A stretch of DNA of 64,000 nt from NCBI GenBank assembly GCA_009886625.1, contig QXZA01000011.1:124001-188000 (forward strand), written 5' to 3'. The notes beneath the pieces are model-generated. The model was given only the letters and a program-made list of their open reading frames with translations. It was not told where the DNA came from and ran no database searches. Position numbers and translations under genes: made by a program. This document shows positions 23,511-27,033 of this stretch, piece by piece; position 1 is the stretch's first letter; each line of letters begins with the position of its first letter. This DNA is from Flavobacteriaceae bacterium (GTDB lineage: Bacteria > Bacteroidota > Bacteroidia > Flavobacteriales > Flavobacteriaceae).

Positions 23511-24737
23511 ATGTTTAAAAAAATTCTAACTCAAACAGGTCCAGGGCCTTTAATTGCCGCTGCTTTCATCGGTCCAGGCACCATTACTCTATGTACCCTT
23601 GTTGGTGCACAATATGGATTGGAATTAATTTGGGCCATCTTGGTGGCTATAATTGCAGCTATAGTACTTCAAGGTATGGCTGTTCGATTAGGAATCATTG
23701 GTCAGAAGAGTATCACGCAAGCCATCGAAGAGGAAATCAAAACTCCATGGCTAAAAACTGGCTTACTTGTTTTAATATTTTTAGCCATTATGATTGGTAA
23801 TACAGCATATGAAGCTGGAAATATTAGTGGATCTGTCTTAGGCCTAGAAACTTTATTTGGAAAAAAATCACTAAATGCATTGGGTTTCAAAATAAATTTA
23901 TTCTCCATGGGAATTGGGGTGATTTCTGCGAGTTTACTATGGATAGGAAAATACAAAATCATAGAGCGAAGTTTGATAGTATTGGTGATTCTAATGAGCA
24001 TTTCATTTTTAATCACTGCTATTGCAACCGGCCCTCCCATCATTGAAATTCTTAAAGGTCTTTTTAGTTTCTCCACTCCTCAGGGAAGTATTCTCAGTAT
24101 CATTGGTTTGGTTGGAACAACAATTGTTCCTTATAACCTGTTTCTTCATGCAGAATTGGTTAAAGAAAAATGGTCCAACACATCAGACCTTCCATATGCA
24201 ATGAAAGATATGGTCATCGCACTTGTTTTGGGTGGAGTTATTTCAATGAGTGTGATCATTGCAGCGGCCTCCACTAAAGTTTTACATTTAGAAAGTGCCG
24301 CAGATCTTGCGATTGGTTTAAAGCCTTTATTTGGCTCTTTTGCAAAATATTTTCTCTCCTTTGGACTTTTTGCAGCAGGGATAACGAGTACAATCACTGC
24401 ACCACTTGCAGCCGCATACGTAGTTTGTGGATGTATGGGATGGAAAGCTGAGTTAAAAAGCTCAAAATTTAAACGTGTATGGGGAATCGTTATTCTTTTT
24501 GGAGTTATATTTTCGGCTACAGGACTGAAGTTGATTTTTATTATACAATTTGCGCAAATCACCAATGGAATATTACTTCCTATTATTGCTGGAATTTTAC
24601 TTTGGATCATGAATAATGGCTCTCTATTAGGTACGTCTAGAAACACATTACGTCAAAATATTTTAGGTGTTTTAATTGTTCTTATTTCTGTGTTCCTTAG
24701 CTTACGTAGTTTATGGTCAGTGTATCAAAGTTTTTAA
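23511..24737 (+). CDS. Nramp-fold transporter with altered metal site
   Basis: A 408-residue, roughly eleven-helix inner-membrane protein related to MntH/Nramp. It starts the 5-oxoprolinase operon, one base before pxpA. The metal-coordinating motif DPGN of helix 1 is replaced by GPGT (21-24: Asp to Gly, Asn to Thr). The helix-6 Met-Pro-His motif reads VPY (206-208). Both ligand sets for Mn2+/Fe2+ are therefore missing. B. subtilis YcsG, a similar protein, is also encoded beside the pxpA-type gene ycsF. A role in taking up 5-oxoproline or another organic substrate is my inference; metal transport is unlikely from the residues. Confidence 0.85.
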   Translation: MFKKILTQTGPGPLIAAAFIGPGTITLCTLVGAQYGLELIWAILVAIIAAIVLQGMAVRLGIIGQKSITQAIEEEIKTPWLKTGLLVLIFLAIMIGNTAYEAGNISGSVLGLETLFGKKSLNALGFKINLFSMGIGVISASLLWIGKYKIIERSLIVLVILMSISFLITAIATGPPIIEILKGLFSFSTPQGSILSIIGLVGTTIVPYNLFLHAELVKEKWSNTSDLPYAMKDMVIALVLGGVISMSVIIAAASTKVLHLESAADLAIGLKPLFGSFAKYFLSFGLFAAGITSTITAPLAAAYVVCGCMGWKAELKSSKFKRVWGIVILFGVIFSATGLKLIFIIQFAQITNGILLPIIAGILLWIMNNGSLLGTSRNTLRQNILGVLIVLISVFLSLRSLWSVYQSF

Positions 24738-24738
24738 G

Positions 24739-25473
24739 ATGTATAAAGAAGTGTACAATATTAACGCAGATTTAGGCGAAGGATATGGAATAGAAAAAGC
24801 CATAATGCCTTATTTAAATTCTTGCAATATCGCATGTGGTGGCCATAGTGGCGATTCGGATTCAATTAAAGAAGTTGTTGCGCTTGCAAAACAATATCAT
24901 GTAAATATTGGTGCACATCCTTCTTATCCTGACAAAGAAAATTTTGGCAGAAAAACCATGGAATTGAGTAAAGATGAACTATCACAAAGCATACGGGATC
25001 AAATTCATCTACTCCTCTCTGTAGTCCAGAAAAGTGACTTGCATCATATCAAACCTCATGGAGCATTATATCATCGCTGTTCAAATGATAAAGAATTTGC
25101 AACAATCTTACTTGAAATAATGCATGACCTTTGCCCTCAAGCAAAAGTTTTTACATTACCCAACAGTCAAATGGACAAAATCGCGAAAGAATACGGAATA
25201 AAAGTATGGCGTGAAGCTTTCCTAGACAGAGCATATCAAAAAAATGGACAACTCCTGCCTCGATCTCATGGAAACGCTATATTAAAAGACATCAACTCCA
25301 TATACTATCAGTTTTATTCTTTGGTAAGGAATCAGAAAGTAAAGGCAATAGACAACTCCTTGATCGGGTTACAATCAGACACCTTATGTATTCATGGAGA
25401 TCACCCTAATGCCGTAGAGAATTTAAAAACCATCCTCAATTTTTTTGAATTAAAAAAAGAACCTCTTGAATAA
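24739..25473 (+). CDS. pxpA: 5-oxoprolinase subunit A (LamB/YcsF family)
   Basis: One subunit of the ATP-dependent 5-oxoprolinase PxpABC, which opens 5-oxoproline (pyroglutamate) to glutamate. Using the ATG at 24739, the protein has 244 residues. The deacetylase-like fold shows INADLGEG (8-15), CGGHSGD (33-39), GAHPSYPD (58-65) and KPHGALYH (105-112), the family's expected acidic and histidine residues. It is the second gene of a tight operon: the Nramp-like gene, pxpA, pxpB and pxpC, with gaps or overlaps of a few bases. An upstream start at 24676 would overlap the transporter gene deeply and is rejected. Confidence 0.92.
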   Translation: MYKEVYNINADLGEGYGIEKAIMPYLNSCNIACGGHSGDSDSIKEVVALAKQYHVNIGAHPSYPDKENFGRKTMELSKDELSQSIRDQIHLLLSVVQKSDLHHIKPHGALYHRCSNDKEFATILLEIMHDLCPQAKVFTLPNSQMDKIAKEYGIKVWREAFLDRAYQKNGQLLPRSHGNAILKDINSIYYQFYSLVRNQKVKAIDNSLIGLQSDTLCIHGDHPNAVENLKTILNFFELKKEPLE

Positions 25474-26191
25474 CAAATTACCATTTACTTTCTTTCGTAT
25501 GCATCCTAAGGTAATTCTTTTGGAATGGGAACAAGACCCTAGTACTGAGACACTGAAAGAGCTGACCCATTTTAAGGCAAATATTTTAAAATATTCTATG
25601 GGAGTTTCACAAATTACTCTAGGATACTGTTCGCTTTTAGTTCAATGGAAAGAAGATATTATAAATTATAGTGATGCTAAAAAGAACCTTATAGCATTAT
25701 ATAGCAATCTAAGCATTAATTCAACTCCAGCAAAAACAAAGCATTGGACTTTACCCGTATGTTATGAGGGAGAATTCGCCTTAGACCTAGCACATTTATC
25801 ATCCGAATTAAAATTAAGCAAAGACACTATCATCGAATTGCACAGTAAAACGATCTATACTGTTTACTTTATTGGGTTTTTACCAGGTTTTCTTTATTTA
25901 GATGGACTTGATTCTAAATTGTTTTTTCCTAGAAAGAAAAATCCACGATTAGTCATTCCTAAAGGTGCAGTTGCGATCGGCGGAAAACAAACTGGAATTT
26001 ATCCAAATGAAAGTCCTGGGGGTTGGCACATTATTGGAAATACTCCTATTTCATTATTCAACACTAAAAACGAAACGCCCTGTTTTGCCAAATCGGGAGA
26101 TACGCTCTCTTTTTATGCTGTTGATGAAGCAGAATATCAAAAAATACAGTGTGTTAACAATCCTAAGGCCTATTTAACTAAAGTCAAATGA
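25466..26191 (+). CDS. pxpB: 5-oxoprolinase subunit B (KipI family)
   Basis: The KipI-type subunit of 5-oxoprolinase. The 241-residue protein carries the carboxyltransferase-like cyclophilin fold, with IGFLPGFLYLDGLD at about 136-149 and a conserved region PKGAVAIGGKQTGIYP and ESPGGWHIIG at about 166-193. The start is a TTG (25466) overlapping the pxpA stop by 8 bases; an ATG at 25502 would delete the first strand of the domain. In B. subtilis the orthologue KipI also inhibits the kinase KinA, but no such kinase context exists here. It overlaps pxpC by 4 bases (ATGA). Confidence 0.9.
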   Translation: MNNKLPFTFFRMHPKVILLEWEQDPSTETLKELTHFKANILKYSMGVSQITLGYCSLLVQWKEDIINYSDAKKNLIALYSNLSINSTPAKTKHWTLPVCYEGEFALDLAHLSSELKLSKDTIIELHSKTIYTVYFIGFLPGFLYLDGLDSKLFFPRKKNPRLVIPKGAVAIGGKQTGIYPNESPGGWHIIGNTPISLFNTKNETPCFAKSGDTLSFYAVDEAEYQKIQCVNNPKAYLTKVK

Positions 26192-27033
26192 TAGAGATTC
26201 TTAAGCAAGGGTGGCATACTACAATTCAAGATTTAGGCCGTTTAGGTTCTCAGTCTTTTGGAGTCCCTATTTCCGGAGCAATGGACTTGAATGCTTTTCA
26301 ATGGGCAAACAAATTATTGAACAACAACTCTAGTGCTGCTTGCCTAGAAATGACTAGTAAAGGTCCTGAATTAAAATTTCATGAACCTAGCTTTATTGCT
26401 TTTACTGGCGCCATAATGCAAGCTTTTCTCAATTCAAAACCAGTAAAAATGTATAAACCTATTGAAGTGAAGAAAGGAGATGTTTTAAAATTTTCGTCTG
26501 TGACTTTAGGATGCAGAACCTACATGGCAATACTTGGTGGATTTCAGTCCGAAAAAGTATTGGGATGCAGGAGTCAATATAAAGGAGTAACCCTAGAGGA
26601 TCGTATTGTAAAAGAAAATTTACTTCTTTTTAATAGGAATGCATTTACTCAAAAAGGTGCTAGAGTAAAAACAAAAACTACTGATTATAAAGATGTGAAT
26701 TTAAAAGTTTATCAAGGACCAGAATATCATCTTTTGAATTCTCATTCTCAAAATGAATTTAAAACAAAACAGTTTACTATAAGTCCAAGTAATAATAGAA
26801 TGGGGTATCGTCTAAACGAAAAAATATTGCAACAACTTCCTGAAATTTGGACTGCACCCACCCTTCCAGGTACAGTACAGCTCACTCCAGATGGGACTTT
26901 AATTATCCTAATGCGAGATGCACAAGTTACTGGTGGATATTCAAGGATTCTTCAATTAAGTGACAATGCTCTAAATTTATTAGCTCAAAAATCCACCAAG
27001 GATGTTATTAAGTTTGAGCTAATAACACTTTAA
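26188..27033 (+). CDS. pxpC: 5-oxoprolinase subunit C (KipA family)
   Basis: The biotin-dependent-carboxyltransferase-like (KipA/AHS2) subunit of 5-oxoprolinase. The 281-residue protein has the family start TTIQDLGRLGSQSFGVPISG (10-29), the AFTGA strand near 71, and the late block NRMGYRLNEKIL with LTPDGTLIILMRDAQVTGGY. The ATG overlaps the pxpB TGA as ATGA. It ends the pxp operon proper; a -7 box (TATTTTTG, 27080-27087) precedes the next gene, which may be transcribed separately. Confidence 0.92.
   Translation: MIEILKQGWHTTIQDLGRLGSQSFGVPISGAMDLNAFQWANKLLNNNSSAACLEMTSKGPELKFHEPSFIAFTGAIMQAFLNSKPVKMYKPIEVKKGDVLKFSSVTLGCRTYMAILGGFQSEKVLGCRSQYKGVTLEDRIVKENLLLFNRNAFTQKGARVKTKTTDYKDVNLKVYQGPEYHLLNSHSQNEFKTKQFTISPSNNRMGYRLNEKILQQLPEIWTAPTLPGTVQLTPDGTLIILMRDAQVTGGYSRILQLSDNALNLLAQKSTKDVIKFELITL

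Follow-up and report, generated by a model that had tools for sequence, protein, structure and literature searches.

A 5-oxoprolinase operon headed by an Nramp-fold gene

The window analysed here, a stretch of 64,000 nucleotides from a Flavobacteriaceae bacterium (contig QXZA01000011.1), contains an operon with the order pxpT-A-B-C, in which the gene for an Nramp-fold protein comes first. This pxpT-like gene (23511..24737, + strand) encodes a transporter of 408 aa that belongs to family PF01566 and to a clade characterized by GPGT and VPYN motifs. It is followed on the same strand by the genes for the three 5-oxoprolinase subunits, pxpA (LamB/YcsF; 24739..25473, +), pxpB (25466..26191, +) and pxpC (26188..27033, +), whose identities were confirmed by profile matches in Pfam and NCBIfam. 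A single base separates the stop codon TAA of the transporter gene, ending at 24737, from the ATG of pxpA at 24739, in agreement with a preliminary description of this locus, which had also reported a chain of overlaps among the pxp genes. The pxpC ATG at 26188 and the pxpB stop indeed have 4 bases in common (ATGA), and the 8-base overlap of pxpA and pxpB holds if pxpB starts at the TTG assumed here (25466), the alternative ATG at 25499 leaving a small gap instead.

The transporter scored 256 bits against Pfam PF01566 (cut-off 29.8). Among the NCBIfam models, the broad Nramp_1 alone passed, with the MntH and Nramp subfamily models far under their cut-offs. An AlphaFold2 model (pLDDT 82, pTM 0.82) has the Nramp fold, and profile and Nramp/LeuT fold together place the protein within the PF01566 superfamily.

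Loss of the metal ligands

In metal-transporting Nramps, Mn2+ or Fe2+ is held by Asp, Asn and Met where helices 1 and 6 are unwound. The window protein has the sequence FIGPGTIT in helix 1 and GTTIVPYNLF in helix 6, with GPGT (residues 21-24; 23571..23582, +) at the position of DPGN and VPY (residues 206-208; 24126..24134, +) at that of MPH. Both substitutions had been proposed from the sequence, and both were borne out by profile alignments to the solved structures DraNramp and BfraNramp, which are gap-free in TM1 and TM6 and set G21 on Asp56, T24 on Asn59, V206 on Met230 and Y208 on His232 (DraNramp numbering from the literature). The canonical Slc11/Nramp signature, DPGN in TM1 and MPH in TM6, is therefore absent. 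We also considered that the metal ligands might reappear at shifted positions, which the gap-free profile and model alignments ruled out: the model superimposed on DraNramp with a VIA Z of 47 and start residues offset by 35, again placing G21 on Asp56, so that the ligands are not restored elsewhere.

The replacements are fixed throughout the clade. Across 162 members, Gly occupies the Asp site, Val the Met site and Tyr the His site without exception, and at the Asn site 159 have Thr and 3 have Ser; no member retains any of the ligands Asp, Asn and Met, a point that the preliminary description had put forward as a check. The TM10 Gln is kept in all 162. Such uniformity is not expected by chance and, as far as sequences can tell, points to another conserved substrate and not to decay. 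In helix 3, the motif GNTAYEAGN (residues 96-104; 23796..23822, +) has conserved positions G96, Y/F100, E/Q101, G103 and N104, residue 101 being Glu in 152 of the 162 members and Gln in the remainder.

Comparison with known groups sets the protein apart. Canonical Nramp/MntH proteins (DraNramp, BfraNramp) share with it the full-length fold (VIA Z up to 47) and the TM10 Gln but are only about 22% identical and differ in having the DPGN and MPH ligands. The Mg2+ transporter EleNRMT is its best PDB sequence match and also has Thr at the TM6 position; however, NRMTs retain the TM1 Asp (DxxG-TxxA/T), where the window protein has Gly, and its clade is separate from the DAGG rows. Even the Mg2+ branch depends on the TM1 Asp for transport (PMC8806188). 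A 2026 preprint points out the lack of DPGN and MPH in Nramp-related proteins (PMC12873925), and an 'orphan outgroup' of Slc11 has been defined within PF01566 (Cellier 2022, 2023; PMC10606218). By the published description, the window protein carries the marks of the latter: the helix-3 Tyr-Asn pair, four invariant glycines and the helix-6 Val/Tyr, together with the lack of DPGN and MPH. The outgroup was published only as the root of Slc11, with no substrate, whereas the window clade is tied to 5-oxoprolinase; no functional report on the window clade was found in the literature searched.

Association with two unrelated 5-oxoprolinases

Among flavobacterial loci in GTDB genomes, 73 of 80 have the T-A-B-C order, and several of the 7 others end at contig borders. 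In 395 Bacteroidota genomes, 78 members of the window clade were recovered with a profile at 298-560 bits, clearly separated from other Nramps (218 bits or less). Within 5 kb, PxpABC genes accompany 37 of these 78, HyuA/HyuB or fused OPLAH-type genes 18 and a gamma-glutamyltranspeptidase gene 2; the remaining 21 have none of these. An identical check of 14 other Nramp-like loci, with the second clade described below kept apart, found no such enzyme neighbours. Where no oxoprolinase gene is adjacent (23 genomes), the enzyme is encoded elsewhere in the genome, as PxpA in 12 and HyuB in 11 (both in 0, neither in 0). Neighbour counts and distant genes together thus give a 5-oxoprolinase-type enzyme in 78 of 78 transporter-bearing genomes, spanning 38 genera, vs 16 of 150 sampled genomes that lack the transporter (10 HyuB, 6 PxpA; Fisher p 2e-45, a nominal value that ignores kinship among genomes). 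Counted the other way, PxpA occurs in 73 of the 395 genomes, 49 of them together with the window clade where 14.4 would be expected.

PxpABC and HyuAB/OPLAH are unrelated enzymes of different Pfam families. In a maximum-likelihood tree, the window clade had support of 98/97, and at least 7 switches of enzyme type are needed on the transporter tree. Relatives outside Bacteroidota were drawn from plasmid records; among them, haloarchaeal plasmid proteins with 41-45% identity are encoded directly before HyuA and HyuB in both loci read. As the companion enzyme alternates between unrelated kinds, the pairing of the transporter with either is best explained by a substrate common to both. Co-occurrence and enzyme swaps strongly support the earlier proposal that a clade of Nramp-like proteins is linked to 5-oxoproline.

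Two further observations concern members without an adjacent oxoprolinase gene. A VTYN/VAYN subclade (L062, L204, L207-L210, L212-L215 and L217) never adjoins such a gene, yet its genomes encode one. Two members without adjacent pxp genes (L046:6284-8026 and L174:8550-10295) lie near a gamma-glutamyltranspeptidase gene, a hint that their 5-oxoproline may derive from gamma-glutamyl compounds.

A second clade with YcsG, PxpT and MumT

A second clade (clade 2) consists of Nramp-like proteins that carry GPGF and GGTVGGY motifs and whose genes also adjoin pxp genes; its support in the maximum-likelihood tree is 100/100, with the window protein outside it. We found clade 2 in some Bacteroidota, in Lactiplantibacillus, Deinococcus and Bacillus badius, on Klebsiella and Rhizobium plasmids and in the mum locus of A. 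baumannii. In B. badius, the order pxpA-transporter-hydrolyase corresponds to the ycsF-ycsG-ycsI order of B. subtilis. YcsG, compared through the integrative model 9a52 in a fold search, is 57% identical to a Bacteroidota clade 2 member (read from a three-row clade 2 model with pLDDT 50, used solely for this identity) and 22% to the window protein. On these identities YcsG is assigned to clade 2, as is C. glutamicum PxpT by its published identity of 50%. The preliminary description, which had presented ycsG as a relative of the window gene, conflated two clades. Experiments on YcsG and PxpT consequently apply to the window protein by analogy, not by orthology.

The proteins YcsG, PxpT, PxpG and MumT (from B. 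subtilis, C. glutamicum, C. difficile and A. baumannii) resemble the window protein in having the Nramp fold without metal ligands and in their clade adjoining pxp genes, with 5-oxoproline import proposed. They differ in forming a separate, long branch with GPGF...GGTVGGY, and their operons often carry D-glutamate cyclase and biotin carboxylase genes. The window clade shares with clade 2 the genomic link to 5-oxoprolinase genes but lacks its motifs. An AU test of a common origin of both clades gave p 0.37 and did not reject a single clade, for which reason we do not claim that they were recruited independently. The two clades shared 0 genomes (78 and 16 of the 395 Bacteroidota, nominal p 0.027 uncorrected for kinship), as if they were redundant; given the missing correction, we place no weight on this exclusion.

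Published functions for clade 2 proteins diverge. Deletion of pxpT in C. glutamicum abolishes growth on 5-oxoproline and is complemented (PMC13274462), and according to the same source YcsG was required for use of 5-oxoproline as nitrogen source. Under its alias MntG, YcsG has also been named a Mn2+ importer; its overexpression raises cell Mn and its operon is MntR-regulated (PMC10448178). For MumT, too, Mn import has been reported (PMC5050338).

A gene annotated as 'putative hydro-lyase' is a frequent part of clade 2 operons, and a scan of the A. baumannii locus identified it there as a PF07286 D-glutamate cyclase; the annotation is alike in three other loci (L165, L166 and L163). The D-glutamate cyclase family yields 5-oxo-D-proline, and these genes suggest use of D-glutamate or 5-oxo-D-proline. 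The mum locus itself (L161:5944-12148) holds pxpA, a fused pxpBC, a biotin carboxylase gene, a D-glutamate cyclase family gene and a gene for a ligand-less Nramp-like protein. Judged by this content, what has been called the 'manganese and urea metabolism' operon seems to be one for 5-oxoproline and not for urea carboxylase. Scans of viral contigs gave no matches for either clade; clade 2 genes do occur in three phage-labelled records (CAKLQH020000001.1, CAKLQF020000001.1 and OR850336.1), which may be bacterial sequence.

Discussion

The loss of the metal ligands, together with co-occurrence with enzymes that degrade 5-oxoproline, makes 5-oxoproline, rather than Mn or Fe, the substrate most likely imported. 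We consider it probable that the product of the window gene, a protein with the LeuT/Nramp fold, imports 5-oxoproline (pyroglutamate) across the inner membrane. The substrate proposed in the preliminary description is thus favoured by co-occurrence and enzyme swaps, and its link to ycsG needs correcting, as that gene belongs to a separate clade. Gly-x-Gly turns bind carboxylates in amino-acid transporters of the APC superfamily. With Gly-Pro-Gly-Thr in helix 1 and Thr-Thr-x-Val-x-Tyr-Asn in helix 6, the metal ligands are gone, and the Gly-x-Gly turn left in helix 1, apparently similar to those turns, is a candidate carboxylate binder. Uptake may be coupled to a cation, perhaps to H+ by way of Glu101, which is conserved in helix 3; since this residue could align with either Asp131 or Glu134 of DraNramp, three residues apart, we offer proton coupling as a suggestion. 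Imported 5-oxoproline would then undergo ATP-dependent opening to glutamate by PxpABC from the same operon. Import followed by this opening is the most economical reading, against which we counted that about a quarter of the window-clade genes do not adjoin an oxoprolinase gene.

A small but tangible probability falls to a divalent-metal importer, for Mn2+ or another ion, with an unusual site and a link to 5-oxoprolinase through co-regulation or a metal need of the enzyme or of its glutamate product. In its favour are the overexpression and MntR data on YcsG and the report on MumT, two distant proteins called Mn importers (PMC10448178, PMC5050338) that likewise lack the ligands; they belong, however, to a different clade. 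None of the three Nramp-like genes in the window genome is a canonical MntH, and MntH shares 4 genomes with the window clade where 29 are expected among the 395 Bacteroidota (genus level, 4 vs 12.4, p 5e-4). A role in replacing Mn uptake would also predict this anticorrelation, which is why we keep a metal role in consideration; but lineage and habitat could be its causes, 4 genomes do have both, and more than 170 have neither. Moreover, the Asp, Asn and Met of the metal site are missing from all 162 members, the TM1 Asp being needed in the branches tested (PMC8806188), and metal supply does not predict a transporter found with two unrelated kinds of 5-oxoprolinase in 78 of 78 genomes. The two additional Nramp-like proteins of the window genome (G000:C26:6965-8104, L054, and G000:C2:5437-6447, L053) are also ligand-less, with GTGS and GVSH at the DPGN site.

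Unlikely as well, and ranked just behind, is transport of a related compound in place of 5-oxo-L-proline, such as 5-oxo-D-proline, hydantoin, another lactam or a gamma-glutamyl compound. Enzymes of the HyuAB/OPLAH family range over hydantoinases and lactamases, and the nearest solved structure to the fused OPLAH-type enzyme is named N-methylhydantoinase, so that other lactams stay among the candidates. The two window-clade members near gamma-glutamyltranspeptidase and the cyclase genes in operons of the other clade could be read in the same way. Against this, 5-oxoproline is the sole substrate that both PxpABC and OPLAH-type enzymes are known to open. An exporter or exchanger, for instance one releasing excess 5-oxoproline or glutamate, is very improbable: genome context alone leaves direction unfixed and 5-oxoproline also forms inside cells (PMC13274462), but growth on external 5-oxoproline depends on the analogous proteins YcsG and PxpT.

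Import of 5-oxoproline by the window clade would have consequences beyond this locus. Databases label such proteins 'divalent metal transporters', and the literature on ligand-less Nramp-like proteins is in conflict, two papers presenting them as Mn importers and others as needed on 5-oxoproline; the window clade makes this conflict directly testable. In Bacteroidota, most exported proteins have an N-terminal pyroglutamate (PMC10653852), and our results suggest a route for pyroglutamate recovery in this phylum. They also supply a likely substrate for a group used as the root of the Nramp tree, which bears on the origin of metal transport. We give an even chance to the broader proposition that the entire orphan outgroup consists of 5-oxoproline importers, which would have kept to this substrate in bacteria and archaea while their partner enzyme was exchanged repeatedly, as a line separate from YcsG/PxpT. 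If so, metal transport by Nramps would be a specialised activity in a group to which carriers of small organic acids also belong.
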